From Polytrichum commune (Eukaryota > Streptophyta > Polytrichopsida > Polytrichales > Polytrichaceae), in contig OX485806.1 in assembly GCA_950295325.1 (NCBI GenBank), forward strand, positions 57,655,169 through 57,719,168: a stretch of 64,000 nt of DNA, written 5' to 3'. A program made the translations under genes and the position numbers. Below, piece after piece: positions 1 through 63,300 of this stretch; position 1 is the stretch's first letter, and each line of letters starts with the position of its first letter. A model generated the notes under the pieces. It saw only the letters and a list, made by a program, of their open reading frames with translations, was not told where the DNA came from and ran no database searches.

Positions 1-423
1 GAAGCGTGAACATCCTCGATTGGGCAGTGAGGGACTGTTGTGGTCGAGGGTCTTATTGTTTGTCCACCACAAAGGATGCACAACTGCTGCAGGATGGAAA
101 AGGCTGGCGGGCCTTACTCAACGATGGATGTTGATGCCACCTCCCCGAGTTTTTCTTTGGCCACCGTCCACTAGTTGATAAGCTCAAGATGCTTGCGATG
201 TGGTTGCCCCTGTCTGTGCGCCCAAGAATGGGTTCGGTCCCAACAACTTTTGCAGTGACTCTCGCCGGCAACCCAAATTCTTCTAGAGTAATGCCAAGTT
301 GTTCCTAGGCTTTGCAAGAATATGAAGCCAGGGCATCTAAGTATCGCTACCCTCTACCTCCCACTGTTGCATTAAGATAAAGACCACAATCTCTAGAAGA
401 AGAAGAAACTTCGATCTGCGGTA
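1..423. other. Unassigned left edge
   Basis: A 72-codon minus-strand frame (53-271) is open, but it resembles no family I know. The stretch may be flanking DNA into which the LINE on its right inserted. I see no repeat or RNA gene in it. Confidence 0.3.
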
Positions 424-691
424 GGGGACCGACGTGAATGAAGTGTCTGTTCGTTCCACCCCTTAACCTATGCCCACAGGGCATAGGAATAGAAGTATAG
501 AACTACTTCCCCCTTTCAAGAGTAGACACTATAGTCACAAGTAACCAGTGACAAATAGAAACCAATAACAGATAGACAGTATATAAATAAGGGTTGATTA
601 ATATAGAGTTTGTTTTGTGCAGAGTTGAACGTCAGACCATGAGCTCATTATTGTGTGGAGATAACGTTTTTCATATAAAGCTTTGATACAT

Positions 692-2283
692 CTAGGGGGG
701 GTTTTGTATTTGAGGTAGAGGTTGGTGATTTTCTAGTATTCTTTTGTGGAGGAGGATGGACATGGCATATTGTATGGCAATGGTATTGATGTTTTTGAAG
801 GTATTTCGGATGGATAGCATAGGTAGTTTAAATTTGTCTTCAAGTAGTTTCATTGATGGAATGTGCGCTGCGGCTCTGGCGCCTGCTGTAATAACAATGA
901 GTGGATCGATTTTCCAGCCTAGAGTAGCAATGTTTTCTATCGGTGGTTTATATTTGTTAGCTTTAGCTTCTAGTGTTTCTAGTGAAAATCTATCATTACA
1001 GTATGTGAATTCAATGAATTGTATGGTAAGTGTTTGGTCTATTTGTGGGGGGTTCATTTTGATATGGTAACCCTTTAACGCAAAGAATGTTGGGTCTAAA
1101 TCGAGAGTTACAGTGGCATCTTTGGGTTCCACATGTGCAGGGTACATTCTTGGGGGTTGTCATTAAAGGTACCAGCGTTCATAAGAATGTAGCATCGGGA
1201 TTTTTCAAAAGAAATTAGTAATTTTCTGATTTCCCATACTACTTTGTTATGTCTTTTGATGTGTAATGAGTGAATATGTTGTTGCCTACATGTGAGTAGT
1301 ACATGTAGCCATGTATCAGATTCGTATGAATTACAAATAGGACAGGTGATAGTGGGGAATCTTTGTCTACCAAAGAAGGTTTGTTTTCTGGCTTGGCCCA
1401 TGTAGGTTCCGGTGCAAAATTTGATAAGGCATGATTTTTGCTTGTCCGTAATAGTAGGGTTAATCCAAAATTCATTGGAAAGTTCTTTGTCAATGTCTTC
1501 ATTGCCTGTCCATTTACAAATATTGGGGGTTTGTATGGCCATAGTTTCTAAGTTGTTTATTCTGTCATTTTTTTTTTGTTTTTCTAGGAATCTAACGGGG
1601 CCTTTGTCTTGCGTGTCTATCATGGAGGGCCATTCGTCTTTTTGGTAGTAGTAAGGTGTGGCATGGGCGTGTTCCTATGGGTGTGTGGCACTTCTATGGG
1701 TAAGGTCCAATCTTTCTTTTGCTAATTTATCTGCTTGTTCGTTGCCGTCTATGTTGACATGTGCTTTGACTTTGTATAATGTGATTGGTTGGGAGCGATT
1801 TTGGAGCAATTGTACCATGGAGGCAAGCGTGACTTGGTCAGGGTGACTATTGTGTAGTGTGGGATGTTTAATTTGTGTGTTTAGTATATATAGTACATTT
1901 AGGCTATCGGTGAATATGTATGCGGGTTCATTTGGATATTGGGTATTGATAATTTGTAGTGTTTTATGGATGGCCATCAATTCTGCCCGTAGGATATTCT
2001 GGTGGCCATGTAGTCTTTTGGCTATGCTAAGCCTTTTAGGGCTATAAATGCCATATCATGCTGTTTATTTTCTCCATACTCCCGGAGAGATTAGTTTAGG
2101 TTTTTTAAATGAACCGTCAATGTAATAACTGAATTGTGGATGAAACTTTAATGTCAAGTTAGTTTGGTAGTCAGGTAGTTGAGGCATAGGTGTTTCATTG
2201 AGTGTGGGGATATTGGGATAAGTTAGTTTGGACCATTTTTTGTTGGGATTAACAGGGGTATTTGGGGAAGGTATGCATGGCAA
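692..2283 (-). pseudogene. LINE copy A ORF2 C-terminus: RNase H, CCHC motif, RLE-like domain
   Basis: The remnant is read in several frames. 2283-2065 gives the RNase H start (FSYYIDGSFKKP, first catalytic Asp). 1980-1675 gives its later part (IFTDSLNVLY, KAHVNIDGNEQADKLAK). 1623-1108 holds CPIC...WLHVLLTC, a Cx2C-x9-Hx4C pattern, followed by RHNKVV. 1147-692 holds a globular domain with FIEFTYCNDRF and DPLIVITAGAR. In RLE-type LINEs a CCHC motif sits directly upstream of a restriction-like nuclease, and the last domain fits that place. Breaks lie near 2065, 1650 and 1130. The CxC pairs present in copy B are lost in this copy. Confidence 0.8.
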
Positions 2284-2363
2284 TTTGTGTATATAGTTGT
2301 GATATTGAGAGAGTATTTACAATATGGGTGAGTTGATTTAGTTGTTCATAGGTTCCTATGTAG

Positions 2364-2366
2364 TTA
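2364..2366. repeat. TTA target-site duplication, left flank of Harbinger element
   Basis: TTA directly precedes the left terminal repeat and recurs at 6618-6620 directly after the right one. A 3-bp TWA duplication is the rule for the PIF/Harbinger superfamily. Confidence 0.9.
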
Positions 2367-2390
2367 GGGCGGTACCAGATTGGGGGCAGG
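2367..2390 (+). repeat. Left terminal inverted repeat of Harbinger element
   Basis: It begins GGGCGGTACCAGATTGGGGG and pairs with 6594-6617 read on the minus strand. Confidence 0.9.
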
Positions 2391-2879
2391 CAGTTGGAAT
2401 CCCCGCCCCCGATTGGCCCAGGCAGCCTCCTGACTACCACACCGGCGGCAGTTCCCATGGCGGGAATCCGGTGTGGCTTGTGCCAATCCTCCCTGCAACT
2501 TCCAGGGGGCGGAGGCTGGCTCTCTTACCCCCCTGGCGCCGGGCCTCGCCAGCTCAGGTACCCAGGTCACCAAACTTCACTCTCGCCGCTGCCTCAGGTA
2601 CCCAGGTCACCAAAATTCCACCTCGCCGCCCCCACAGTCCATAGGGTCTCTCGCCATGGCTGCTCCAGGGCCTCTTCGACCAGCAGCCTCCTCCCTATCT
2701 GTACTGTTGAACCTGTACCTGCTGCAGCTGGGGGTCGGCTTCGAGTGCAGCTGTAACTCGACATCGACATTTGGTGTTTTTTTTCGGTTTTTTTTCTTAT
2801 TGTTTTTGGGTTATTTGTGTGTTTTTTTGCTCCCTTTTCAACAAATTCCTATTCACTTGTAAATTGGGTTGTGCTTGGG

Positions 2880-4886: not shown

Positions 4887-4977
4887 AAATACAATGTCTC
4901 TATTCCTCGTCATCAATGAAAGTTTGAGCAATGTACGCCTTTGTCTTTGCCATCCAAAGAATTCTTGCAATGGTATT

Positions 4978-6300
4978 TCATCTTGCGGACAACTCTTTGA
5001 ATGATTTTCTTGTAGTGCTCATTGAGATTTCAAATGCCATAGCGTCTTTTTGCTTGATGTATTCTAGAGTTTCTCGTGATTCGTCGTCAATGCCGGCCAA
5101 GCTATACAATGCCAAGTTGGCCACGGCCATTTGCTCGCGCAAGGACGATCCCGACACTTGTGGGATTGCTAGTCCGTTGCGCACCTCATCAGTGGCCTCA
5201 CGCATCCATTCTTCTCTCCAAAAAGTGTTTCCGAAAATTATGCACATGTTGTGCAAAACCAAGCACGTGGAAACCAAATTGAGCACGTTCTTCAAATGCA
5301 CGTCCACCCTCTTCAAAAGAATTCGCCATCTGCCTTTGAGCATCCCGAATGCCCGTTCGAAGCACATGCGTGTGGAACTTTGGACGTTCCAATGGTATTC
5401 CTCTCGTGAAAGACCGTCTTTGTGGCCCTTGAATGGAGCCAACATCCAAGGACGACATGGGTAAGCAGCATCTCCAACCAAAGTATATGGCGAGAACTTG
5501 CCAGCCTCGCAGTATTGGCTGATTGCAGTCCTAGCCCACAGGTTGGCATCGTGCATCGAACTTGCCCACTCTATGTCGAAATCCCAAAACAAACATCTGG
5601 CTGACACCACGCCTTGCAAAAGGATTGAATGAAATCCTTTGCGGTTGTAATAGTCTGGAGCATGCAGTCAGGGTGCAACGATGGGGATGTGAGAGCCATC
5701 CATTGCCCCCACCACGTACGGAATTTGATGCAAGTCTTGGAACTCCTGTGCATATCTTTCCATAGTGGAAGGAGAGGGCCAGTTGATGAATTTCCTTAGC
5801 AAATTTTTTTTTATTGCATCACAAAATTGGGAGACTGCTAGTTGACTAAAAGATAGGCCAATTCTATACAAATCGGCAATGCACTGCATGGAATTACATG
5901 TGGCCAATCTAGAAATTGATACAACAACCTTCACCTGAACATGAATGGCCAAACGCAGCCTCGTGTCTCTTCTCTACAAATTGGGTACGAGAGTACTACA
6001 CAAGTACTCAAAAGTCGAGGCATCCATACGCATACGACCTTTGAACTCCCTCGCATTGAATGAGCCCAACAAGTTCTGATCGAAGAAATCTGGTTTATGC
6101 AGCCCTCAATCATGAGCCCACAAACGTCGTTGGTGTCTCCCACTCCACCCCTTCAACCCATGCAGTGCAAGTGTCAACCCTATTTGTTGGCAATGCCACA
6201 ACAAAATTGCCTCCTTTTCTCTCAATATACACTCCAGGGCTGAGAACAAAGAGAGCTGGAAGATTAGCAAAATAACCAGCTTATGGACATCGGTGTCCAT
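4978..6300 (-). pseudogene. PIF/Harbinger DDE transposase
   Basis: The frame runs from ATG at 6300 to a stop at 4978 (440 residues), a normal length for the family. N-terminal block: KPDFFDQNLLGSFNAREFKG. The catalytic residues are visible: first Asp in VVGAMDGSHIP, second in YTLVGDAAYPCRPWML, and Glu in RCFERAFGMLKGRWR-type sequence (here MCFERAFGMLKGRWRILLK). Three in-frame stops break it (6106-6104, 5976-5974, 5670-5668), but there is no frameshift and family similarity continues across each. It is convergent with the Myb-like gene; their stops are about 90 bp apart. Confidence 0.92.
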
Positions 6301-6593
6301 TTTGGCAACAACCCTAAATTGAAATCTTGGTGATATATGGGAGCTAAACCCTAAAGAGGCTTCTGAATAGAGGGAAAAAAAATATTCATGAGCCCAACTC
6401 TCGGCTCTGCAGACGCTCAAGTGAGAAAGAAGGCCCCTGGTCACAGCTCTCGGCTCTGTAGAGAGCCCGGAAACTTCACAGCAGCTGCGCTTCCTCATGT
6501 GCCGGTGCCGGCCAGGTGTGGTAGGTGGACCCCCTGCCTCCCACGTCGGCAGCTACTATACTAGCTTTTAGCCTAGCCTTTCGCCGCTAGTGC

Positions 6594-6617
6594 CCTGCCC
6601 CCAATCTGGGACTGGCC
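6594..6617 (-). repeat. Right terminal inverted repeat of Harbinger element
   Basis: On the minus strand it begins GGCCAGTCCCAGATTGGGGG, matching the left end. It is followed by TTA at 6618-6620. Confidence 0.9.
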
Positions 6618-6835
6618 TTAGTATCTGTTGGTCAACAATTGGATATTCCCACTAGCATCTATCTTTGCCTCTCATGCTACTACTACAGTAGCTCCTCACC
6701 CTTATTTTGGTGGTGTATGCAGAGTATTTGTAGTGTAGGAAGTTCTTTCCTAGGTATATTAAGTTCTGGTGGTATAGTGGGTTCTTCATATGTGATAGTA
6801 TCACCACAATCTCTACACCTAACCCTAGCCTAACA
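6618..6835 (-). mobile_element. LINE copy A, segment upstream of the Harbinger insertion
   Basis: The minus strand reads DTITYEEPTIPPELNIPR and then ILCIHHQN. LINE copy B has DTITYDEPTTPQNINKPR and IFCIHHQN at about 54500-54410. This shows that the LINE was present first and the Harbinger element landed in it. Similarity fades near 6835, the probable 5' truncation point. Confidence 0.8.
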
Positions 6836-8800: not shown

Positions 8801-10420
8801 TCATGGACAAGTTCCACGGAAAGAAATTTAGCATTTGGAATTTAAAGATGAAGATGATTTTGGCTTCCATAGAACTTTAAAACATTGTGGACATATCCGA
8901 GGAAGCTCCAACTTCCAATGCGGATCCCAAGGTCAAGAAATAACATCAAAGGCACGTCAAAAAGGCTATGTCCATCATCAACTTCAACTTGACGGACAAC
9001 CAACCTGCGCACATCAAGAGTTGGAAAGCACCAGTGGAGGCATGGACGATCCTTTGTAACATTCACAAGACAACAAAATTGTCCAACATTCTCTTTGTTC
9101 GTCGCAATTTCTTCACGTGCAAGAAGCAAAAAAATGACGACTTGTTGGACCACGTTAACAAGGTCAAAGCCCTTGCGGATTAACTCGCGTATTTGGAGGT
9201 ACCCGTGCGGGAGGAAGACATTGTCATGACTTTGCTCGAGAGTTTTCCGACCTCATATGAATACTTAATCACCGTTTTGGAATCAAAGGCAATGAAGGAG
9301 TTCACGATGAAATACATGATGGCATGTTTGATACACGAGATGTCGTAGCGCAATGAGAAAGAACCCCAAAGTGAACATGCAGCGATGATGTCGCATAAAT
9401 ACAAAATGAACAATCCACCTTCATGGCAAGGCGTAAGGACGTGCTACTAGTATGAAACATCAGGCCATATTGTACAATTTTGCTAGAGAACAAAGAAAAA
9501 GAAAAAGAAATGCCAAAAATGCAAATGATGTGGACGAAATCGCATTTGTGACACAACTCAAAAAACATTCGGAACTTTAACACCGCTGACTCGTACATTT
9601 GAACCTGATGAGCGTTTATGCACTCCAAAGCATGGTGAGGGACATGAACCTAGATAAAACCTCTCGTCCCACCTCTACAGTGGTTTGCAAAGCATGCACA
9701 GAGGGTAAGCAATATGCAACAAAGTTGGGCAACGATGCAGAGATGCAAGTAACAAAACCCTTGGAGATTGTGCATTCGGATATTTGTGGCCCCATGGAAA
9801 ACATGTATGTGGGAACAGTAGAATATTTTGTTACTTTCTTTGATGATTTTTGGAGGAAGGTGTGGGTTTACATGATGAAATTCAAAGGAGAGTGGTTTAA
9901 GAGGTTTAAGAAATTCCAAACATTTGTAGAAATACAATTAGAGCATGAAATCAAGGCATTTTGGTGAATTAACAAAAATGATTCCATTTCAAAAGATTTT
10001 GAAATATTTTTGATGGAACACGGCATTGACATCACACCTCAAGACATTGGATCAGCAGAACATGCAAATTGAATTGTTATTGCAATGACAAAGCATATGC
10101 TCAAAGCTCAAAAACTCGAGAAATCACTTTAGGCGAAAGCGGTGACAAATGCGGTTTATACACTAAACCAATGTTCGACGACAACCTTGCTCTCCATTAC
10201 ACATCAAGAAATGTGGAGTGGGAGGATGCCTTGCATTGCACACATGCATGTGTTCAAAAGCAATGTCTCCGGACAAAAAAAACGGGTAAATTCGATGCGA
10301 AAAAATGAAATGTGTGTTTCTTGGATATTGCGAGGGCATAAAGGCATATAGGTTGATGTGTTTGGAAACCATATATCATTATAGAAATCAAATAAGATAA
10401 ACAAAATCTTTATAGAAGAT
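8801..10420 (+). pseudogene. Ty1/copia copy 1: gag and integrase remnant
   Basis: Gag starts near 8803 (MDKFHGKKFSIWNLKMKM) and continues through SWKAPVEAWTILCNIHKT and RRNFFTCKKQKNDDLLDHVN, the UBN2-type gag of copia elements, with stops at about 8880, 8941, 9181 and 9346. The protease is missing. From 9599 the GAG-pre-integrase zinc region (CKACTEGKQYATK) leads into integrase (PLEIVHSDICGPMENMYVG, FFDDFWRKVWVYMMKF). Beyond 9965 the integrase is broken by frameshifts. It is a heavily decayed relic with an internal deletion. Confidence 0.85.
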
Positions 10421-27559: not shown

Positions 27560-29020
27560 AAGAATGATGTGTACTTATATTGCACATATGACATATGTAA
27601 AAAAATAAGACCCAATGTATTAAAAGGGGTACGACTGATAAATTTGTGCGAAGCATTGAGATCCAAAGGTGCAAGCAAATGGGAGGCCGTAATGCAAGAG
27701 GAGTATGACTTGCTCATGGCCAATGGTAAATGGGAATTGACCAAGCTTCCAAAGGATCACAAGAATGTAGGATGCAAATGGGTATTCTACACCAAGAAAT
27801 ATGCATTGGGTGAAATTATTAGGTATAAGGCATAATTAATAGCAAAGGGATATTTTCAAGTAGTTGGAGTGGATTTTAATGAGACCTTTGCTCATGTGGA
27901 TAAGTTTATCATCATAAGATGCATTCTCGCATTAGAAGGTGCGATGAATTGGCAGATCCACCAAATGGATGTTAAAACAATGTTTTTGAATGGAATATTG
28001 GAGGTGGAGATTTATATGGATCAACCAAAGGATTTTGTACAAGAGGGGAAAGAAGATCTTGTGTGCAAAATCAATAAAACTTTGTACAGGCTCAAACAAT
28101 CACCGAAGGCGTGGTACCACCGTATCGACTCATTTTTATTAACGAGGGCATTTGTAGCAGCCAATCGGATCATTCATTGTGCGTCATACAAACGGGTAAA
28201 CATTTGTTGGTGGCAATCCTCTATGTGGATGATATGATCATATTGGCAAGCAATGTAACCCAATTGAAGTGGTTTAAATCGGAGCTTGAGATGAATGATC
28301 TCGGAAAATTGTATTATTTCTTAGGAGTGGAATTTGAGAGGAATAGAGAAGCCCGTACCATTATCACGGACCAAAAAAACTAGATTGAAGTGGTCCTCAA
28401 GCATTTTAACATGAAAGAATGTAAACATGTTGGAATTCCGTTCAATGTGAATTCAAAATTATTGAAACTTTCGTATGAAGAATTTGTGAATGTGCAAAGG
28501 GAAATGGAAGGTGTTCTATACAAGGCCGGAGCAAGATCTCTCATGTATGTAATGATGGCCACGAGGGCCGATATTGCATTTGCGGTAAGTACGGTGAGCC
28601 AATTCATGTCGAAGGCCGGTCCACCGCATTGGATGGCCATAAAACATATCATGAGGTATTTGAAAGGTACTTTAGACTTCAAATTATGCCTTGGAGGCAA
28701 GGATATTATCTTAAGAGGTTTTTGTAATGCGGATCGGACGGGAGATGCAAACAACCATCGATCTACCACGAAATATATGTTTTTGTGTTGGAGTTGGAGT
28801 CAGTTCATGGAAATGCAAGAAACAACCAACCATTTCATTGTCTACAACAAAGAAAAAGTACATGGCTATTAGCCATTGTACTAAGGAAACGGTTTGGCTT
28901 AGGCAACTTTTGACGGATGTAGGATATATGGAAGAATGACCGACATTTATCATGTGTGACAATGAATGATGCGTAGCATTTGTAAAGAATCCCACACACC
29001 ATTCTTGCACCAAACATATC
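27560..29020 (+). pseudogene. Ty1/copia copy 3: reverse transcriptase and RNase H remnant
   Basis: Reverse transcriptase begins with WEAVMQEEYDLLMANGKWEL and continues through QIHQMDVKTMFLNGILEVEI, EDLVCKINKTLYRLKQSPKA and the catalytic LYVDDMIIL (near 28220). RNase H follows from 28390 (RGFCNADRTGDANNHRSTTK), where the usual catalytic CDAD reads CNAD. Stops or shifts occur near 27833, 28150, 28381 and 28790. It is oriented opposite to copy 2, which ends about 600 bp away, so the two are not one element. Confidence 0.88.
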
Positions 29021-51520: not shown

Positions 51521-52480
51521 ATGAGTGAACAAACTAGGCGCAACGCTAAAGAAACTTACTTACAATTTGAACAAGAGATTGAAAGAGAAGAGAAAGAAAT
51601 CACATTAAATCCGTTATGGCCGTGGGAACATTCGGCATATAGCAATGACAACAACAAATATCATCGAACATGGGCAAGTGCAAGCAAGTTCCAGACTCTA
51701 ATGAAAAATATGAATACAATATATGGTGAACAAACTCGGAAATAATTTGAAGAGAAGAAGTTTAGTTTTACTTATAGATCGGAATTTGAACAAAGATTAA
51801 AAGAGCTACCGGAAGGGTTACAATCAATTATAATTGTTGAAGAGTGGAATGAAGGAAAATACACCTTGTGGGAGTGCATGCTCGGAATGACAAAACAAAC
51901 CAGATACCACTACAACCAAAAAGGATTCCTTTACGACCTATACAATGAAAAAATCATGATTCCTATGTATGAAGGGAGTGATGGAGATTAGTCTAGAATG
52001 ACCGTGGATGGAATACTCCGGATAACAAATAGAGAAACAATAGATGGAAAATGTTTTATAGGATCGAGGAATATATCTTGGCAAGATCAAGAGATCCAAT
52101 GGACGATTGAAGAGTTGAACTTGAAAAGTTTATTTGTACAAGATTTTGAAGACGAGACCGTGATCACCAAGAGGGCAGATCATTAGCCGTGGGAATTTCC
52201 TAAGTATGACAAAGAAACTCACACCGAGAGAACATGACGAAGCACCTATAGATTTTTTGAATTGATGGTGTCTATGAACAAAGTATACAAAGGAAGAACG
52301 TGGCAACAATTCAAAGAGAAAACCATAGGATTTAGATATAGATTGGAATTGGAGAAGAGAATTTTTAAGTTAACGGAAGAACTACAAATCAAGATTGTTT
52401 CAAAACTTTGGAATAACGGACGAAATGGAATGGGGTTTTTTTTTATCAAAGAGCCACTCAACATCAAGGATTTCAGATAG
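51521..52480 (+). pseudogene. Unidentified gag-like ORF with a duplicated domain
   Basis: The frame begins MSEQTRRNAKETYLQFEQEI and stays readable to about 52480 despite stops near 51740, 51990, 52183, 52235 and 52262. Two related segments are visible. Repeat 1 has LWPWEHSAY, KFQTLMKNMNTIYG, FTYRSEFEQRLKELPEGLQ and EEWNEG. Repeat 2 has PWEFPKYDK, ELMVSMNKVYKG, FRYRLELEKRIFKLTEELQ and KLWNNGRNG. The second is about 80 residues. No zinc knuckle or catalytic motif is seen. Position after an LTR-like leader suggests a structural gag protein, but the family is unknown to me. Confidence 0.45.
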
Positions 52481-52504
52481 ATAGATAGAAACTCCGGTCC
52501 CTAA

Positions 52505-52640
52505 TTAAAGGGGCCGGCGTGAATGAAGTGTCCGTTCGTACTGTCAAATGACCCGATGCCTACCAGACAAGGGGAAATTTGGGCAATACTACTCTCCCCT
52601 TCCGGGGATGGATACTATAGTAACCGGAAAACAAAATAGA
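52505..52640 (-). repeat. LINE family 3' tail, copy B
   Basis: On the plus strand GGCGTGAATGAAGTGTCCGT and the later GATACTATAGTAACCGG match 430-450 and 525-550 beside copy A, with intervening similarity. It lies downstream of ORF2 in both copies. Confidence 0.7.
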
Positions 52641-52659
52641 GGTAACCCTCCTTAGTTGT

Positions 52660-52990
52660 TTGGCACGTAGTTGCGTCAATGTTATAGTATAAGCTGTAAT
52701 TTGTTGTGTTTGGTGGACGCCAAATCATGTTTCCTTGGTTGGTTGAGGGAGGATGTTTAACTACATGTAGACGGTCCGGGTTCGATTCCCGTTGAGTCTG
52801 TCTGAGTGTTTAGTGTGTTATTCATGACTTGGTGCTGCTAGTGATTTAAGGCAGGAAAATTATACCAACCAGCCGGTTCCTACCCGTCTTCCTGAGCTAT
52901 TGGAGTTTATATTGTTCAATCAATAAAGGACTACTTTATGATCCTTTTCTTATTCTTTTTATTTTGTTTGTTTGTTTGTTCCTTTATTAT
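52660..52990 (+). repeat. tRNA-like/SINE-like segment with a consensus B box
   Basis: GGTTCGATTCC at 52779-52789 matches the RNA polymerase III B box exactly and sits in a short CGGG/CCCG stem. A weak A-box-like TGGTTGGTTGAGG lies about 45 bp upstream. The acceptor arms do not pair, so it is not a functional tRNA gene. It stands between the LINE ORF2 end and its tail. Confidence 0.35.
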
Positions 52991-53216
52991 TCTGTTGGTA
53001 TTGCTTGGTTATTTTCAATTCGTCTTTTATGTAGAAGGATTGAACTAGCATATTGTATGGCAATGATGTTTATTTCGGGTACCTTATGATGATTTATATA
53101 TATATAAATTATTATTATTATTATTGTTATTCTGTTGGTATTGCTTGGTTATTTTCAATACGTCTTTTATGTAGAAGGATTGAACTGGCATATTGTATGG
53201 CGATGGTGTTTATTTC
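52987..53216 (-). repeat. 90-bp direct duplication of the LINE ORF2 end (140-bp period)
   Basis: 52987-53076 and 53127-53216 are about 95 percent identical (both contain TTATTCTGTTGGTATTGCTT and TAGAAGGATTGAACT). The sequence between holds ATT trinucleotides and a TATATATATA run. Confidence 0.92.
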
Positions 53217-53627
53217 TTTGAATGTATGGTTTATAGAATTTTGAGGTAGTTTAAGTGTTTGTTCAAGTTGTTTCATTGACGGGGTGTGCGTGGTTCCTCT
53301 AGCTCCAGCCAAGATGACTATAAGTGGGTCTACTTTCCAGCCTTGTTGAGTGATGTCATTAATTAGTGGTTGATATTTTTGAATTTTATTGTCAATTGTA
53401 TCTTGTGAGAATCTATCATTTGTGTATGTGAATTCAATAAATTGTACCGTGAGGTTGTTTGTTGGGTGTGGTGGTGGGGTGCTTTGGTGTGGAAGTTCTT
53501 TGATACACAGGAGGTCGGGATTAAATCGTGCGTTGCAGTGGCATCTTTGTTGTTCACATGTACATGGTAGGAGCCATGTGGGGATTGTATTCTCTTGTGG
53601 GTTGTTGTCGAATGTCCCTGCATTCAT
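53127..53627 (-). pseudogene. LINE copy B ORF2 C-terminus: RLE-like domain
   Basis: It reads PCTCEQQRCHCNARFNPDLL, then LTVQFIEFTYTNDRFSQDT, KVDPLIVILAGARG and INTIAIQYASSILLHKRRIE. A CxC-x5-CxC cluster, an RFNPDLL motif and a later FIEFT could be the Pro-Asp and acidic residues of a restriction-like endonuclease; in RLE LINEs a basic-PD pair precedes an Asp/Glu. Copy A keeps the last two thirds closely, which indicates selection on the domain when the family was active. The upstream CCHC lies near 53800. Confidence 0.65.
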
Positions 53628-53649
53628 GAGAATGTAGCATCTTGATTTT

Positions 53650-54080
53650 TGCGATGATAGGATTAGTTTTCTTAGTTCCCATACTGCTCTGTTATGCCTT
53701 TTGGTTCTTAGGGCATGTATATGGTGTTAATTGCATTTTAGCAGTACATGTAGCCATGTATCTGCATCAGAGGAATTACAGATTGGGCATGTGATAGATG
53801 AGAATCTTTCTATGCCAAAAAATAGTTGTTTTCAGGCATTACCCATGTATTGTCTAGTTCGGAATTTTAGTATGCATGTTTTTTATGAGTATGATATTAC
53901 AGGGTTAGACCAGAAATTGTTAGATATTTCATTTTCAATGTCAGGGTTCATTGTCCATTTGCTAATGTTGGGGAATTGTTCTGACATGATTTTTAGGTTG
54001 TTAACTCGGTCATGTTTAGTTATGTATGTTTCGAGGCATCTGACAGGGCCTTTGTCAGGTCGCTTGTTGGGTCCCGGCTA
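53650..54080 (-). pseudogene. LINE copy B CCHC region, frameshifted
   Basis: On the minus strand around 53800-53730 the broken text corresponds to the CPIC...H...C block of copy A (spaced CPICNSSDADTWLHVLLKC-like). Stops separate it from the RNase H remnant upstream and the RLE-like frame downstream. Confidence 0.55.
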
Positions 54081-54860
54081 GATATCTTTTTGGAAGTAGT
54101 ATGGTGTGGTGTGTGCAAATTCGTATGATTTGGCAACGAATCTGTATTTATTTTTGGCGCCGTGTTTTGCTAATTGGTCTGCTTGCTCATTCCCATCAAT
54201 GTTTGTGTGTGTTTTTACCTTATATATCGTAGTAGGTTGCATTTGGCTTTTTAGTATTTCTACCATAGATGTTAATATTTCTATAATATTTTTATTTACT
54301 GGAGTATTGCGAGGTGTGGGGGGAGCTTTTTGTATGTGGTATTGTGCTATTTGTATATTTGCGATTATTGTTTTAATTGTGTCTATTTGGTCGGGTGTGC
54401 CAATGTTGTGGTTTTGGTGGTGGATACAAAAGATGTGTAATGCTAATGGTTCTATTCGAGGTTTGTTTATGTTTTGGGGGGTTGTTGGTTCGTCATATGT
54501 AATGGTGTCCGCATTAAAATGGGTTAATACATGTGTGTCCGGAAATGGTCCGGTGTGTGGTGAGTAGTTTTGGTACCAATTAATGTCTGGTGTGACTAGT
54601 AGTGAGATGTTGTTTGGATCGTTTTTGGCTGCTAGTCTTGCCCAGTGTATTGCTTGTTGGGTTGTTTCTTCATTGTGTGGATGGGCATACCCCATTCCCT
54701 TCCATTTATATTGGAAGGCAGTGCCTAGTGAACCAAAGACTTTGTCTCTTGCAAATGGGGAGTAAAATTTGGTAATATGTGTAGAACATGTTACTGGTGT
54801 GTTATATTGAATGTTTCGGTGATGGAATCAAGGAGATTTTTTGGGAGAGTGTGTTGTGAT
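54078..54860 (-). pseudogene. LINE copy B methyltransferase-like segment and internally deleted RNase H
   Basis: From about 54770 the frame reads ITKFYSPFARDKVFGSLGTA, FQYKWKGMGYAHPHN, QAIHWARLAAKND and ISLLVTPDINWYQN. The layout (W-G-x-NPPY-like, then an amphipathic helix, then a hydrophobic strand ending in W-Y) recalls Dam-type adenine methyltransferases; the catalytic NPPY would be AHPHN here, so it is probably inactive. Farther on, APPTPRNTPVNKN joins directly to LTSMVEILKSQ and KTHTNIDGNEQADQLAKHG, so the catalytic half of RNase H seen in copy A is missing while the frame stays open (54695-54078). Confidence 0.6.
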
Positions 54861-55842
54861 GTTTTTAATGGGTCCTTTTTCGATTTTTTAGAGTTATATC
54901 TTTGGTAGAGCCATACTACTTCTGTTTCAAATGATTGTGGGGGAGGTACTAGTCTGTGTGTGTTGTATTGTTGCCATAGCCATTTTAGTCTTGTGGTTGG
55001 GATGGTAGTGAGGTGTCTTCCGGTGTCTTCGTATATATGTGTTAATTCGTTTTGTGTGTGTATCGTGCTTTCTACAGTGGCAATGTCTTTTTTCTGGGTT
55101 GCATTCTATTACTGATATTTGGATATGTGGTATTATCGTAGGTGGTGGTATAAATCTTGGATCTTTGGTTTGTATGGGGGCTAAGTGTGTTTGTACGATG
55201 TTTTTATAGTAGTTGTGTTGATGTCTTGTGTAGTATTCTTTTAGTAATTAATTTGATGTTGTGTACGATTATTGGAGGTTGGTTTAGTGGGAAGAGTTCG
55301 CATTGTAGTAGCCATTTGTTATATGTGGTGTTGTTTTGGAGTGACCATTGGCATAGGTATGTGTTGAATTTTTTTGTTATTTTATATTTATCTTTGGTTT
55401 TGTTTGATTTGTGGTTCAGTATAATGTGGATGGGGAATTTGAGTGGGTTATTTTTTATATTGGGGGGTGGATTAGGTTGCTAGGGTTGTTGTGGTAGTGG
55501 TAGGTGTAAGGGGTTTTCTTGCATTCTGGGTGTTAGTTCTCTATTTTCTTATATATATCTTGTTTTTAGTGTACGGGCTTGTGGGTGTCTGTTACATGGG
55601 TTTGGGCAGTTTTGGTTGCAGCTTTCTTGGTAAAAGAGTTGTACTGCTATGCGTAGTGTAATTTTTTTGAGTTTTGTCGATGTTTTATAGTATATTTGGA
55701 AGTCTTTTGGGGTCATTAAGTGTGTGTCATTGGGGAGGGAGATGTGTTTTACTTTATGTATGTTCTGAGTTAGGAGTTTATGAAGTAGTTTTAGGGATAT
55801 CTCGGGGTTTAGTTGTGGTAGTTCGGCTGTGGCTTGTGTTGT
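54861..55842 (-). pseudogene. LINE copy B linker between reverse transcriptase and methyltransferase-like segment
   Basis: Frameshifted text includes RFIPPPTIIPHIQISVIECN, then after a shift TTIPTTRLKWLWQQYN and RLVPPPQSFETEVVWLYQRY. It is unlike any domain I know, but its composition is that of coding sequence. Confidence 0.5.
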
Positions 55843-57250
55843 CTATTCTTGTTCTAGTTCTGTTGTGTGGAGTTGGAAGTTTGCCTCTATGCTTTTGAGG
55901 TGAGCTCCTCCTTTTTTTTTCATTAGAAATAATGTTCGTGTTGTAGGTGATCTTATACAATCTTGGTATTTGATTATTTGTATGTCCTCTGCCCCACCGT
56001 GTTTGGCTACTATATGTTGTATGAGCCCTTTGTATACTTTTCCTAATCTATCGGAGTCGTTTAGTGCGTTTCTAAGTTGTTTACTAATACATCTTAGGTA
56101 GGCATTTTTAAATGAGAATGCTTCTAGTCCAAATAGATCATGTGGTAGTTGGGTTATTATATTTGATGTGCATTTGGGTAGACCACAGATTATTTTTTGG
56201 ATTCCAATTATTTTTTTGTCTAATTTTTTTATGGTTGGTAATGAATATGGGACTGCGTAGAAGCTATAGGCTATATCAGCTCTGATGACGGTATCCACCA
56301 TGCTTATTTTTTGTTTAATAATAGCTGGACATTTTGTTAGTTCTTTACATTGGTTTATTATTTTGGTCAACGTGATGTGTGTTTGGAGCTTCCATTTTAG
56401 TGAAGATACTAGTTGTATGTCTAAATAGACGTAGGGTTTGTTTTGGTGTAGGATAGGTAATGGTTGGTTCCTGTAGTTGATGTTTTGGGCTTGGATTTTG
56501 GCTTTGAATGTTTCCGGTTTTGTTTCTGATTTATTTGGGCATCTTGTGATGGCACATTTTGGAACTCCCAAATCCATTCCGGCCCATTCACAGTATTTGT
56601 CTAATTTGCTTAGTTGTGTTTGTATTGATTGGAGATTGCTTGTGATAGCATCCAGATCGTCTGCATATGCTGCCGAGCTGATTGTTAATTTGGACATACC
56701 AAATGTGTACCCATTCTTTCCTCTTTGTAGCCATCTTAGTAGAGGTTCTAGGAATATTAAGAAGAGGTATGGGCTGAGTGTGTCGCCTTGTATTATGCCT
56801 CTTTGTATTGGTATAGGTTTTGTCTTTCCAAAGTGTTCACAAGTGAATATGGTATTGGAGTTTGAGTAATTGTTTCCTATTAGGGTCACCGCATCTTCTG
56901 GGTATCCTATGTCTTTTGTTATCGCTAGCAGCCTTGCGTGATCGAGGGTACCGAAGGCATTTTTAAAGTCAATATATAGTAGGTATATATCTTAGTTTGT
57001 AAATCTTGCATCTTCTAGTGCTGCTATGAGGATTTGGAGTTGTCTGGACGTGTTTCTTTCTGCTCTAAATCCTTCTTGGCTACCGTGTAGGATTTGGTGT
57101 TTTTCCCCATATGTTGATAGTATGAATATTAGGGTACTTGTAAAGAATTTGTATATTGTGTTTGCAAGTGCAATTGGTCTATGATATGATAATTTTGAGG
57201 GGTGTCTTTTTTTATATAAGAGTATGATTAAGCTTATTTTTCATGATGTT
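55843..57250 (-). pseudogene. LINE copy B reverse transcriptase
   Basis: Motifs in order on the minus strand: SYHRPIALANTIYKFFTSTL, GSQEGFRAERNTSRQLQIL, motif A YIDFKNAFGTLDHARLL, motif B GIIQGDTLSPYLFLIFLEPL, motif C SSAAYADDLDAI with both catalytic Asp, motif D WAGMDLGVPKCAITRCPN, and motif E KPYVYLDIQL. The last 348 codons (56889-55843) are one open frame. A stop near 56995 and a shift near 57235 interrupt the N-terminal part. The fingers, palm and thumb are otherwise complete. Confidence 0.9.
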
Positions 57251-58299
57251 GGAATTTGTTTTTGTTTGTAACAGTGGGAGAAGAATAGGAAGTATAGTTT
57301 GTGGAAGCTTTCGGGCATAATTTTTTATAATTATATTAGGAATTCTATCGGGATATGGTGTTTTGTTGTTTGCTAGGTTTTTAAGGCAAATGTCGTATAT
57401 TTCTTTGTCAAAGTATTCATGTAGTGGAATTTGTCGGTTTCCTCTCTTGTCGATGACAAATCCATCGAGGTCATGCCAGGGGTATTGTCTTACATCGCAT
57501 GTACAATATAGTATGTGTTCTAGTTGGTGGTAACATGTTGGTACTGTGGGTCTGTTGCTAATGGATTGTTGTTTGTGGATTTCGTTGGCTAAATCTATAG
57601 GGCTTGTTAGTATATTGTTGTCTTCGTCTGTAATGCAGTCGAGTGGGGGTGTTTCTTGGTTTTTGAAGACTCTTTTGTTAATTTTCTTTGGACTTTTTTC
57701 ATATAGTTGTCTGTATTTGGATATGGTTTTTTTGATGCATTCTTGGGTGTATTTTGTGGTAATTTTACGGGCATGTTTATTTGCGGTTTTGGCTATTTGG
57801 GCTAGTGTTTTTATCCATTCATGTTGGTTAGGTTCTTGGTTTGGGGGGGTGGGATAACCACTTGGGTATGATTACTTAGTTCTTCTATGATTGGGTGTGT
57901 TGACCAGTTTGGTGAGTTTTTTATTTGGTAGATTGCTTTCCTAATTAAATGGTAGGTGGAGAGATGGTTTTTCCATTTTGTTTGTAGTTTTCTTGGTAGG
58001 AAACCTTCTTTTTGTGATGTTCGGTTTGTGAGGTCTGGGAGGGGTGGTGCGCTACACGTGTCTTGGATTTTTTCATAAATTTGTTGAATTAAGTGGTCTA
58101 ACTTAGTGCAAGATGTTTACCATTGTTCATTTGTTATTTGGTTGTTATTTAATGTGTTTGTGAGTTTGTTTATTTGGAGTGCATTTTCTTCAAAAAAATT
58201 TGTTTTGAATATTTCTATATTTGCTTGTGGGATGGGGTTTAGTAGCCTTGGTGGTTTTTTTGTTGTTGGTGGTGTACAACAAGCTATTAGTACATTTGG
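57251..58299 (-). pseudogene. LINE copy B linker between endonuclease and reverse transcriptase
   Basis: The minus strand is coding-like in composition but frameshifted. It corresponds to the usual roughly 250-350-residue spacer ahead of RT in LINE ORF2. No distinct domain recognised. Confidence 0.5.
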
Positions 58300-59132
58300 T
58301 GGTATCTGTAGTGTTACTGGGGAGTGGTCTAAATTTAGGTTATGGTCATTATTTGTTGTCGATGAGTATAGAGCATTGTTGGTTGTTTTAATGTAATATC
58401 CATCTATTAAGCTAGTTTGATTGTAGTCTTGATCCCCTTGTCTAGAGTATGAGCTATTTGTAGGGATATATGTGAGTTGGAGGTTATTCATAAATGTGTG
58501 TCATTCTATATCTTCAACTTGTGGTGGAGTTGTTACGTATTCATTTTGTCGTCCAATTAGGGCTATGTCTCTGTTAAAGTATCCGCATAGGATAAGTGTG
58601 TGGTTTGGGTGGTTAGTGTGTTGTTGTATGATGCTTTGTTGTATTATTGGTATAAGTCGTATGTCCTCTTCGTGTGATGGCATGTAGATGTGTATTATTA
58701 ACCATGGTTGTAGGGGTTGGTTGTAGGGGTTGGTTGTAGGGGTTGGTTGTTTATTTTTATTATTTGTAAGTATGGTGATATTGTAGCTTGAGTGGGGATT
58801 TTGGTGATGTTACCGGGATATGCGTATGATTTGTTTATGAGTATGAGGAGTCCACCTCTTGCAGGTGTATATGGCATTCTTTGTTGTATACATCTTGTTA
58901 ATGTATGTGTGTTGTTAAATATTAGTTTGTATTGTGGGAATAGGTTTTGTATGTACTTTGTGGATTTTGTTGCGGTTAATTTGGTTTCTTGTATAGTGAT
59001 GATTGCGGGGTTATTTGGTGTATATGATGTAAGTTGCTGGATGTTTGGTAGGGCTGTGTTTAATGACGAAGCGTTCCATGTAATTAAGTGTGTGTTGTGA
59101 TTTGTTGTTTGATTTTCTAGGGGGTACAACAT
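58300..59132 (-). pseudogene. LINE copy B apurinic/apyrimidinic-type endonuclease
   Basis: Minus strand. NTHLITWNASSLNTALPNIQ (metal-binding Asn region), PAIITIQETKLTAT (catalytic Glu), GGLLILINKSY, then after a frameshift YMPSHEEDIRL, LCGYFNRD (family consensus GDFN, so the Asp is lost), and after another break NLDHSPVTLQIP (the His of the SDH motif). The domain order and spacing are typical of the EEP-fold endonuclease that nicks target DNA in LINEs. The ATG of this frame overlaps the end of the preceding ORF by 16 nt. Confidence 0.88.
58706..58744 (+). repeat. 13-bp unit, three tandem copies, inside the endonuclease frame
   Basis: GGTTGTAGGGGTT is repeated three times without interruption. 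The net extra 26 bp explains the frameshift between the two endonuclease blocks. Confidence 0.92.
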
Positions 59133-59725
59133 GGGTGTGTCGGGTAGTGGTGGGGGTGGGAATATTCATGTATCGGGTCTTTGCATTTTAAGGTTTTTGT
59201 GAGTAATTCTTCTCGTAAAAAGGGAAATTTGTTTGTTATTAGTTGTATATTTAAGGGTGCATTACTTTGTTTGATGTAGTTATATAGTTCTTTGTGGATG
59301 GTATTGGGTGGGTTGATAATGTCTTGATTTGTTTGTAAGAATTGGGTGTATGGGTGTGGGGTTGTGATGTGTCTTTCGGGTTGGTTTTGGAGTGCGTTCA
59401 TGCGTTCTAAAACTATTGTTGTCCAATCAGGTTCCGGGGTTTGTATTAATAAATGGTTGCATGTTTTTATTACTGGGCTAATTGTGGTAATTAGTGCGTA
59501 TAGTATACGTTGTGGTGGATGGTGTTGGTTTCTATAGATGTATCTTGATAGGTACGGGTAATTTATAATTGCTTCGTGGTGTTTGGGGTGTGTTAGGTTT
59601 ATGATAGGGAATAATTGTTTCGCTAGATGTTGGTATTCAGATTGTAATTTGATTGTGCATTCTATAAAATACCTTTTATATCTATTTTTGTGTGTGGTTG
59701 GGTGTGTTTGTAGGATGTTGGGCAT
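59117..59725 (-). CDS. LINE copy B 202-residue ORF upstream of the endonuclease
   Basis: A single open frame, MPNILQTHPTTHKNRYKRYF to HYPTHPCCTP, largely helical and rich in His, Pro and Ile, with EPDWTTIVLERMNALQN in the middle. It ends with TAG at 59119-59117, inside the first codons of the endonuclease frame. It could be the N-terminal domain of ORF2 split by a frameshift, or the end of a separate ORF. No known domain recognised. Confidence 0.55.
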   Translation of the reverse strand: MPNILQTHPTTHKNRYKRYFIECTIKLQSEYQHLAKQLFPIINLTHPKHHEAIINYPYLSRYIYRNQHHPPQRILYALITTISPVIKTCNHLLIQTPEPDWTTIVLERMNALQNQPERHITTPHPYTQFLQTNQDIINPPNTIHKELYNYIKQSNAPLNIQLITNKFPFLREELLTKTLKCKDPIHEYSHPHHYPTHPCCTP

Positions 59726-59868
59726 GGGTCCCGGGTTGGTTTCAATGTCCCCACTTCGTAGTATTAGTAAGTGTAAGGAAAATGTTTGGATTATGAGAAG
59801 GTTTTTTCGTTCTTTATGTGGTGTGTATTGTTGTTTTTTATTTTTCTTTATTTTAGTGTCTACGTTTG

Positions 59869-61491
59869 TTATGTAGCTTGGGTGTTTAGTGGTTCTTTTT
59901 TGTGATTTTTTGGGATGCGTAATTCTGTATTTTTTTCTTTTTTTTTCTTTTTGTTCTTTATTTTGTTATTTTGCTTTTGGGCGAGGCCGGTAGGCCAAGC
60001 CCGTCTAAGGTGTTTTTTGTGGTTTGTGTTTTGTGTTTTTTTGTTTTGGTGTTTTGGGGGATTTCTTGAGGGGAGTGGGGTGATGTTGTGGGTTGTTGGT
60101 TTTGTAGTGATATGGTGTGCGTTTGTTTGTTTTCTTATTGTCATTGATATTTGATATGGTTTTGGTTTTGTATATGTGTTTTATTTATTTTGAGGGTGTG
60201 CTTTGGTTATGTTTATTTGTTTCTTATATTTGTTCGTAGGGTTTATGTTTACTTTTGTTAAGATTTTGCGTATATCATTTTGGTTTTTTGTTTGTTTGTT
60301 TTTGTTTGTTTTATTTGGTCATTGGTTTGGAGAGATGTTTTGTTTTTATTGTTGTGGTTGTTTTTTATAATTTTGGTTGTGTGTGTTTGTTTATGGTTTT
60401 GTTGGTTTTTGTTGGTTTCTTGGCTTGGTTTTATTTATTTTTTGGTTTTTTATGTGTGCATGTTTGGTTGCAGTGAGAGGCTTGGCTGTGGTGGGTATTA
60501 TGTTTCCTAATTGTTTGGATAAGAAGTATGTGTTTTTTGGGTTCGCTTTGTATGTTGGATGGAATCCGTATTTTTGGTGGAATTTGCATTTTTGGTGAGG
60601 TCTATATTTTGGATGGAATATGAGTCTTGGATGGGGTTTGCCTTTTGGGTGCGTGTAGTATTTCGTTTGATTATTGTTTTTGTGCGTGTGTAAGGTAAGG
60701 TAATTGTACTTGTATTCTATATGGTATTTTGGGCATTGTAGGGTATCATGTTTAGTATGATGGTATCTAGTATTATAGAGTATGGGCTTTGTTGTAGGTG
60801 TGTATATGATATTAGGGTGTTGTCGGGTTTCTTTGTTTTTTGGTGGTATATCTTTTTTTGCATGAGAGGTGTATTGTGGTTGTAGAGCGGCGTAGATGTT
60901 TTTATTAGAGAAATACATCGTGAGCTCTAATCTCATAGGTGATGGAGTAATTGAGTTGATGGGCCTTTGTTGATAATAGGTGTTAGATGGTCTATGTCTT
61001 GGTATGTTAATTGTGGTTTTGGTTTTTTGGTATGTTTTTGCTTTGTTGTTCTTTTCTTTTATCTTTATTTGTTTTTTATTTTCTGTATTGGCGAGGCCGG
61101 TAGGCCGAGTTCGTTTTATTTTAATGTGGTTCTTGTTAGTTTTTTGCATGGTATTTGTGTTTTGGTTTGTAGCAAAGTTTTGGGTGGGTTTGAGATTTGG
61201 GCGGGGTTTAAGTGTGTTTGGTTTAGTCGTATCTATTTTTTGATATTTTGTGAGTACATATTTGGTTGCGACAAAGGGGTTGATTGTGGTGGGTGTTATG
61301 TTTTCTAATTGTTTGGATAGGAAGTATGTGTATTTTGGATGTGCTTTGTATGTTGGATGGGGTTTGTATTTTTTGTGGAGTCTATATTTTTGATGAGGAC
61401 TATATTTTGGATGCAATATGTATTTTGTGTGGGGTTTGTATTTTGGATGTGCATAGTATTTCTTTTGAGTTTTGTCTTTGATAAACACCAA
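59869..61491 (-). pseudogene. LINE copy B ORF1 C-terminal part with hexapeptide repeats
   Basis: A 366-codon frame (61491-60391) carries two arrays of a Lys-Tyr-x-x-His-Pro hexapeptide: YAHPKYKPHTKYILHPKY at the start and FHPKYRPHQKCKFHQKYG about 265 residues on. Each is followed by TYFLSKQL.NI. A basic segment with RPTGLA occurs near 61100 and again, in the frame 60144-59869, near 59990 (WPTGLAQKQN then KKKKK). So one unit of roughly 0.8-1.1 kb is duplicated in tandem. The repeats are low in complexity but the frame is kept. Confidence 0.6.
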
Positions 61492-62902
61492 TTTTTTCCT
61501 TTTTTCCTACAAATTTTTTGTATACAAAGGGGTTGAGGCATTCAACATTTGCACTACCATTGTGTCTAGTTCCATCTTGCTTATGGAACCAAATGGAGAC
61601 AACATTCTTGGTTCCAATTATCTTGCAAATTTCAAGAGATGTGTCATCTATGCTCATCAAGATGGGAAGGTTGTAGAAGGTGAGAGTTAAAGCTTCTTTC
61701 CTTTGTTTTTGCTCCAAGGTGAGAGAAGGCCATTTCTTCACTTGTCCTTCCAAAATTTCATGGTGTGTTGCAACTTGAAGTGCTTGAATTTTCTTGGCTT
61801 GTGAGGGGGTTGATGCAACAATGTAAGCATGGTTGTTGGGAGTGCCTTTTTGCACCTCTACAATCTCAAATTCATGACCTCTCCTAAAACTATTATCTTA
61901 AACATCTTTGAAGAGCATGTGTGAAGAGACATCAATCAAAGTTTCGCTAGTGATTTTGATTGAAAGGTTGTTGTTCCTAGCTATGGAGTGGTAAGTCTTA
62001 CATACCTTTCCAAGAGTACCTTGGGTTGATTTGGGGTCCAATTGTAGAATGAATGGTCTAAGTCCTTTCAACAAGGCCACATCATCAATTTCGGGGTGGA
62101 GAAAATGGAGTTTGGCAATTCCCGCCCAAACTCCTTTCTCCCCACCTCTCTTGACACTCATGCACATGATAGATATGGGCTCAATAAGGTTAGTGCCAAG
62201 TGGTATTTGCATAAACTCAAGTCTTTTCCTTACTAGTTCTTTCACATAGTTGTGTAGGAGAGGGGTGTTAGGTAATTGGAATTCAATAGCAACATGGAAG
62301 TCCAAAGCGAGACATATATTGGGATCAATTGGGATATCATATGGGATTTGTGTTAGGTTTAGGTGTTGTCCAAGGACACCATCCTCTCTCTTACCTGGGT
62401 AATAGATTTGGGATATCCTTGGGAAGGATATTGCGACCCCCTCAATTTCTTCCGCTTCCTTCCTTGGTACTCCCTTAAGTACCCTATCTTCAATGGATTC
62501 ACCATCGAAGAGCTCTTCCAACCCCTCTTCCATAGCCAATTTCTCCATGTTAGTGAAACCATACCAAAAATTTTGACGGAACCTTTGTTCCGGAACAATA
62601 GAATTTACCTGTGAGGCTTGTGGGCGTCGTTGTGGAGTTTGGTGTAGAGATTTATTCGGTGTTGTCTTCTCCCGGCTCCTCTTGGTGTCTATTTGCTTCG
62701 CAGCTTGATTCTCCTTTGCCTTCTCCGCTAAGAGCCGCATGAGGTTTTGTGAGGGTGTGTCTACCTCCATGTTGTCATCATCTCCAAAGATGGGTCGATA
62801 TGTGGAAGGTGATGCCATGTTTTGGTTGCGGTCATAGTGGGCAGCAGCTCCTTCTTTGTTAGTTGGTGTTGCCTCTGCACCGGCTCTGAATGGGTCAGAC
62901 AA
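61400..62902 (-). pseudogene. LINE copy B ORF1-like protein, N-terminal part
   Basis: The frame starts MSDPFRAGAEATPTNKEGAA at 62902 and is open for 334 codons, with an in-frame TAA at 61900-61898, then 165 further codons in the same frame to 61400. It has a charged, probably disordered first 110 residues (KRSREKTTPNKS) and then a folded region (LALDFHVAIEFQLPN, EKGVWAGIAKLHFLHPEIDD, ILEGQVKKWPSLTLEQKQRK, NVVSIWFHKQDGTRHNG). A frameshift near 61480 leads into the hexapeptide-repeat frame. Nucleic-acid-binding ORF1 is inferred from position only; no RRM or CCHC is visible. Confidence 0.5.
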
Positions 62903-62950
62903 CAGTAGTACACAACAGCAGACATGTGCGGTAATTTCTGGAGTTTTTTG

Positions 62951-63300
62951 GATTTACCAGACTCTTGTGACTTGGGTCAGGGTTTTTCTGGGATGGGATT
63001 TCGGAGACTTCTGAGATGAGGTTTGGAGACTTCTGCGGTGTTGGGGACTCTAGGGTGAGGTAATTCCAGCAGCTAGGTGTGGGGGATTCTAATTTTTTTT
63101 CCTGGTGGTTTCGGGATTCTTCTAATTTCTGGTTTCGGAGCCTCTAGAGTGGGATTTTGAAGACTCTAATACTCTAATGTGAAATTTCAGGGACTCTAAG
63201 GCTCTGAGATTTTGTACACTCTCAGATGAATCTCTGTTGAGTAGCAACATTGTAGAGATAAAGGAAGTTATACACATCAACACTCAAACGGCACTTAAAT
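62951..63300 (-). other. Probable 5' untranslated region of LINE copy B
   Basis: Upstream of the ORF1 start, with degenerate repeats on the plus strand (GGAGACTTCTG, GGGACTCTAGGG, AAGACTCTAATACTC). No coding frame. Confidence 0.4.

Follow-up and report, generated by a model that had tools for sequence, protein, structure and literature searches.

The Dualen (RandI) group of long interspersed nuclear elements (LINEs) is defined by the joint presence of an apurinic/apyrimidinic-like endonuclease (APE) and a restriction-like endonuclease (RLE) (PMC4640811, PMC3636483) and has been suggested to be an intermediate in the switch of LINEs from RLE to APE (PMC4640811). Dualen is listed for green algae only by a 2015 survey (PMC4438587), LINE/Dualen is given for cryptophytes in a 2025 paper (PMC12747079), and R2 of Bombyx mori and others is described as a single open reading frame (ORF) with no APE (PMC5678591). 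The element described here lies on the minus strand, from 62953 to 52475, of a 64-kb window (the whole stretch of DNA that was analyzed) of contig OX485806.1 of the moss Polytrichum commune. It is very probably a decayed member of a family of autonomous two-ORF LINEs that resembles Dualen/RandI and is abundant in the genome. An earlier note on this DNA had proposed that one plant LINE carries two endonuclease domains, and that proposal is supported both in the window and in undecayed relatives from the same genome.

Read along the minus strand, the parts follow one another as ORF1, a 2A peptide, APE, reverse transcriptase (RT), a PCIF1-like domain, RNase H, a CCHC zinc knuckle, an RLE-like domain, a 3' untranslated region (UTR), and a (TATC)n repeat (Table 1). 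The span first proposed for the element, 52490..62950, was correct and rightly took in ORF1, whose homologues sit upstream of ORF2 in other copies. The window copy is broken, with a frame break, a stop, and a change of GDFN to GYFN in APE, a stop in RT, and four in-frame stops inside 54827-53127. This decay and the A/C-rich composition would suit a decayed L1-type element with accidental motifs, a reading that is refuted by intact relatives carrying the motifs, by the number of RLE matches in the genome, and by purifying selection, so that we give it practically no credence.

The family was surveyed across the 408 Mb of the genome, which has 4 and 6 matches to the plant domain families LFY and Ovate, respectively; neither was matched in any of 14 control genomes. 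When the best 150 of 2620 candidates from an RVT_1 search were scored, 13 had matches of 801-807 bases, and all 13 of these long-RT loci were taken after the first two proved to be relatives. RT, PCIF1-like domain, RNase H, and RLE occur in the same order in every one of them (the RLE of L034 is cut by the end of its stretch), and the APE query matched all but L029. Two relatives are single uninterrupted frames with complete APE, RT, and RLE motifs: L023, of 2372 codons (RVT_1 E 1.4e-32), and L042, of 2924 codons (RVT_1 E 1.5e-29). The RLE query gave 4983 candidates, the best 150 of which were scored, and has at least 151 matches in the genome; among the matches listed, six have open frames of 2625-2924 codons. 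Among three copies found with this query, identity is 99.1-99.7% across 2.8-3.5 kb of the 5' part and 95.2-98.0% across roughly 0.7 kb at the 3' end, a near-identity that suggests fairly recent amplification of the family.

The motifs WNASSL, IQETKL, and LDHSP, from which the earlier note had read an endonuclease of the endonuclease/exonuclease/phosphatase type, are all present in the window copy. In an alignment of the window with nine loci, WN, QETK, IDG, and DH are kept in all 10 rows and GDFN in 8, the exceptions being the window and L025 (GHFN). The ratio of nonsynonymous to synonymous substitution rates (dN/dS) for APE is 0.10-0.28 in 8 of 10 pairs, the remaining pairs being saturated. 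The APE of L023 matched Pfam Exo_endo_phos_2 over the cut-off (E 9.7e-8). With its frames joined, the window APE reached Exo_endo_phos at E 3.8e-4 (20.7 versus 24.5 bits, under the curated cut-off) and exonuclease III in PDB at E 0.02 over 40 residues. Two results weigh against an APE assignment: Pfam named no APE family on the L042 frame, and a profile built on four APE domains of CR1-like type missed that of the window (E 5.2). At the APE frame break stands a perfect tandem repeat, 3.5 copies of 13 bp (58705-58750).

For the C-terminal domain, published LINE RLEs are recognized by a CX2-3CX7-8HX4C knuckle, an RH where the first helix lies, a PD, a D/E, a second helix that holds KX2KY, and a GXW that follows strand 4 (PMC5678591); the residues of R2Bm are D996, D1009, and K1026 (PMC10499050). 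The knuckle, NPDLL, and FIEFT that had been read from the window were all recovered, the last two together with KIQKY at 53522-53373. Across 13 aligned rows (the window and 12 loci, with L034 omitted because it is cut by the stretch end), RH, IEFTY, KX2KY, and the E of the signature are as invariant as the knuckle, PD is kept in 10 rows, and its D is kept in 11. When the domain was shuffled 200,000 times, the order RH-PD-[D/E]-KX2KY arose in 5 of the shuffles, and dN/dS for finger plus RLE is 0.08-0.17 in 7 of 10 pairs, the remaining pairs being saturated. The spacing D-27-E-16-K is constant in the window, L023, and L042, compared with 13 and 17 in R2Bm. On its signature and selection rather than on its fold, the domain is predicted to be an RLE. 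Inside it, before PD, a CxC-x4-CxC pair at 53564-53535, also invariant in 13 of 13 rows, may bind zinc; we know of no counterpart in R2.

Several observations count against an RLE assignment. GXW was not seen in the 13 aligned rows, and the knuckle spacing is x9 rather than the published x7-8. A profile of 11 copies run against 177,635 PDB sequences gave two matches at E<=10, both R2Bm and both nonsignificant at E 0.31, with an alignment that runs from the knuckle into the RH helix; a single sequence or a shallow profile gave none or chance matches in PDB. AlphaFold on a four-row alignment was poor, with a predicted local distance difference test score (pLDDT) of 39.9. In its better part, still weak (pLDDT blocks of 52-73), IEFT and LIVI each form a strand and KIQKY falls in a helix between them, the arrangement expected of an RLE core. 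The poor model of the predicted domain, the alteration of PD in some copies, and the departures from R2 in the knuckle and at GXW would fit an APE-only plant LINE with a C-terminal domain that is derived from or resembles an RLE, does not cut, and binds DNA or RNA. We consider that reading quite improbable: an E and KX2KY kept in every row, the spacing constant in three copies, the low dN/dS, and an RT that stands apart from the sampled APE-only LINEs all argue against it.

A second copy (copy A), close to the left edge of the window, is more diverged; it shares its C terminus and the final part of the 3' UTR with the window copy (copy B). That the two share the C-terminal domain, as the earlier note had seen, is borne out by amino acid identities of 52-68%. 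The dN/dS ratios of the two halves of the linker-finger-RLE region, 0.13 and 0.27, are rough, since the first half has a dS of 1.9, close to saturation; they indicate that selection had acted on the domain before the two copies decayed. Copy A reads PN where PD is expected, and its RNase H matched Pfam at E 7e-13 over profile positions 28-139. The insertion that splits copy A (2346-6700) holds frames at 5667-4978 (minus) and 4293-4886 (plus), which we take to resemble a PIF/Harbinger transposase and its Myb-like partner, respectively.

The RT, read as complete in the earlier note, has one internal stop. Against PDB it scored 83 bits with R2 and 41 bits with L1 ORF2p, an order that was reversed in APE-type or L1-like controls (120 for L1 and 76 for R2 with L001; 56 and 32 with L002). 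The RT and APE references, L001-L004, are four of the five LINE loci matched in prokaryote genome records, and their clade names, like those of the plant L1s, were assigned by us. These LINE frames stand in assemblies labeled Sulfurimonas, Poribacteria, and Thermocrinis and are probably eukaryotic contamination. In a 10-taxon tree, the window RT fell between R2 (support 92.5/92) and L1 plus the APE LINEs (91.4/87), a placement that was stable under other trimming and models. In a 22-taxon tree that included 7 of the 13 relatives, the family formed its own clade (100/100) alongside R2 (92.7/97) and L1 plus others (88.1/87). An RT inside L1, an outcome that the earlier note had set as refuting, did not occur: the PDB L1 grouped with five L1-like LINEs from this genome in a separate clade (90.4/94). 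The trees are unrooted and sample few clades, among them R2, L1, and CR1-like LINEs.

The approximately unbiased (AU) test, which covers the 10-taxon set, ranked the placement between R2 and the APE LINEs best (p 0.949) and rejected every placement within the CR1-like group (p<=0.0052). A sister position to parts of R2 was unrejected (p 0.098). Also left standing, and unfavorable to an intermediate position, were placements as sister to L1 (p 0.053, just short of rejection), to L001_plus (0.115), to CR1-like LINEs (0.115), and to all APE LINEs except L1 (0.253). The trees thus put the family RT outside L1 and the CR1-like LINEs, between R2 and the APE LINEs. Kojima and Fujiwara reportedly placed Dualen in 2005 at the midpoint between early-branched RLE groups and late-branched APE groups, a position that the family appears to match. 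The preference of the RT for R2 in PDB and the best-ranked placement next to R2 could also be read as an early-branching RLE group (R2/R4/NeSL/Utopia-like) that acquired an APE and is not kin to Dualen. Next to R2 in an unrooted tree is also the midpoint of R2 and the APE LINEs, and RNase H together with joint APE and RLE fits Dualen (PMC4640811, PMC3636483). An origin within such an RLE group is in our judgment unlikely, and we prefer a Dualen-like lineage.

The 3' end adds to this likeness. The window copy, L036, L038, and L040 all end in GGAGTTTC(TATC)n, with flanks that differ past the repeat. Like Dualen/RandI of green algae, the family has an APE ahead of RT, RNase H and a predicted RLE behind it, and a simple-repeat tail; it differs in its plant host and in its PCIF1-like domain and 2A peptide, a comparison made by description. 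To our knowledge, neither of these two parts is known in Dualen. Chlamydomonas Dualen encodes a cysteine protease. Neither L023 nor L042 matched a protease family in Pfam at E<=1, which weighs against a Dualen-like LINE, as does the failure to find target-site duplications where they were looked for. On APE, RNase H, RT midpoint, and tail, the family agrees with the Dualen-like lineage that the earlier note had envisaged, and on the protease it does not; as the group is defined by APE plus RLE, we call the element Dualen-like and not a proven member. Simple-repeat 3' tails are found in 8 of 8 green-algal RandI families, and poly(A) is the 3' terminus of 224 of 233 flowering-plant L1 families (PMC3747384). 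The final stretch of the RLE coding sequence recurs in the 3' UTR of the window copy as a 93-nt duplication (52984-53216, 95%).

The moss family and R2 share the arrangement of RT, knuckle, and RLE (predicted in the moss family) and the residues RH, PD, D/E, and KX2KY, and R2 is the best PDB match of the window RT; the moss family differs in having ORF1 and APE. R2 is not known to have RNase H, 2A, or PCIF1-like parts. Plant L1, represented in the same genome by L016, L018, and L021, shares APE and RT with the family, and RNase H is also known in plant L1 (PMC4640811). These three loci, however, were matched by the RT query only, with no APE, PCIF1-like, RNase H, or RLE match at E<=1e-4, and they belong to the separate RT clade.

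The earlier note was silent on the PCIF1-like domain, the 2A peptide, and the (TATC)n tail. The stretch from RT to RNase H contains a conserved block, FGSxG...WxGxGxAxP...AxHWARMAAK. Profile PF12237 exceeded its cut-off at all 150 scored places in the genome (the best 150 of 697 candidates) and had no match in 14 control genomes. PCIF1_WW was over its cut-off in L042 (E 1.3e-10) and below it in L023 (E 3e-6). Single PCIF1-like domains gave much weaker Pfam results than the longer frames (2 of 9 matched at E<=1), and the part had only chance matches in PDB and none in phages, PHROGs, or NCBIfam. Among the matches listed, 40 of 150 PCIF1-like places precede a same-strand RLE place by 1.64-1.96 kb, start to start, compared with at most 2 in 200 random shifts (allowed gap, 1.0-2.6 kb). 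NPPF is the motif of the PCIF1 cap-adenosine methyltransferase. The LINE domain shares with PCIF1 the profile match over the curated cut-off, but NPPF is replaced: at the site that we aligned, the window and L042 read AHPH, and 13 loci read LAFP (9), LAYP (3), or IAHP (1). Since the block is conserved (dN/dS 0.09-0.25 in 8 of 10 pairs) and lacks NPPF, it has been retained, probably not as a methylase; a module that binds RNA or cap is more likely. A literature search turned up no report of a PCIF1-like domain in a LINE. The adjoining RNase H has lost its N-terminal portion in the window copy and matched Pfam RNase_H in L023 (E 1.3e-14) and L042 (E 3.6e-12).

Upstream, ORF1 has homologues of 28-41% identity in 11 loci (L022, L024, L025, L027, L029, L031, L033, L037, L039, L041, and L042). 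The idea that ORF1 is a separate neighbor, raised by its base composition, was dropped, as homologues lie upstream of ORF2 in relatives. The canonical 2A motif is (D/G/C/N)(V/I)ExNPGP (PMC12846837), and 2A peptides are already known in LINEs (PMC4981915). Across all six frames of the window, [DGCN][VI]ExNPGP is matched by DIETNPGP alone, and shuffling the element 300 times, with three frames read per shuffle, never produced the pattern. When the four longest frames over 300 codons were searched in each of 13 loci, 7 had 2A-like motifs, 10 in total, of which 5 are DIHPNPGP; the motif of L042 is DIKPNPGP. Activity in the relatives is uncertain because these two variants depart from the canonical motif. 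In L028, L032, and L034 the 2A-like motif is present twice, ahead of APE and within a single frame. The ORF2 segment between 2A and APE had no Pfam match of note.

Table 1. Features of the element and of copy A, all on the minus strand; here and throughout, coordinates are positions in the 64-kb window of OX485806.1
Feature	Position	Details
ORF1	61400..62953	Met codon 62818-62816; one in-frame stop near 61900; identified by open frames and homologues
A/C-rich stretch, ORF1 to 2A	59930..61490	Two diverged tandem blocks, 60420-60682 and 61218-61480, 79%
2A (StopGo) peptide	59726..59770	LLILRSGDIETNPGP; core motif DIETNPGP
ORF2 N-terminal part, 2A to APE	59165..59725	Similar sequence in relatives
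APE endonuclease	58291..59087	Frame break near 58750; stop 58503-58501; GYFN for GDFN
Reverse transcriptase	55843..57240	YADD; one internal stop (TAA); Pfam RVT_1 E 2.6e-23
PCIF1-like domain	54390..55105	Two frames, 55105-54794 and 54827-54390; E 0.015 in the window
RNase H, C-terminal third	54156..54308	Pfam E 4.8e-5, profile 92-140 of 141, just below cut-off
CCHC zinc knuckle	53733..53789	C-x2-C-x9-H-x4-C; invariant in 13/13 aligned rows
RLE-like endonuclease (predicted)	53130..53702	RH 53699-53694; PD 53519-53514; E 53435-53433; KIQKY 53387-53373
3' UTR	52475..53126	Ends GGAGTTTC(TATC)n; terminal part common with copy A, L036, L038, L040
Copy A, 3' part	395..2346	RNase H ~2130-1675; CCHC; RLE to 692; 3' UTR; (TTC)n tail 405-395
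Copy A, extra piece of PCIF1-like region	6704..6805	Past the nested insertion

Elsewhere in the window, 9590-9967 and 28384-28872 hold polyprotein fragments that are presumably Copia-like. An Rfam search gave nothing at gathering score, and a scan of viral contigs for close relatives found none.

The element most likely moves by target-primed reverse transcription. Its RNA would be recognized through the 3' UTR and TATC tail, an endonuclease would nick the target, RT would prime at the nick, and RNase H would remove the template RNA; 2A would free the ORF2 protein from the upstream peptide. Because both nucleases are retained, they probably make separate cuts or target choices. Our guess is that RLE, adjoining RT, would make the first nick as in R2 and that APE would cut the second strand or select chromatin.

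No Dualen/RandI from a land plant was recognized among the literature matches listed, a search outside which Repbase and most subscription papers lay, and we claim no priority. Tentatively, and as a possibility that we would not yet call probable, this may be a still-active land-plant LINE that uses APE and RLE in one insertion cycle, in which a PCIF1 domain stripped of catalysis reads the cap region of the element's own RNA, and in which plants have kept an intermediate between RLE and APE elements. The PCIF1-like domain within a LINE is a second surprise beside the two nucleases, and a plant family with intact, near-identical copies would let the roles of the two endonucleases be tested in planta.

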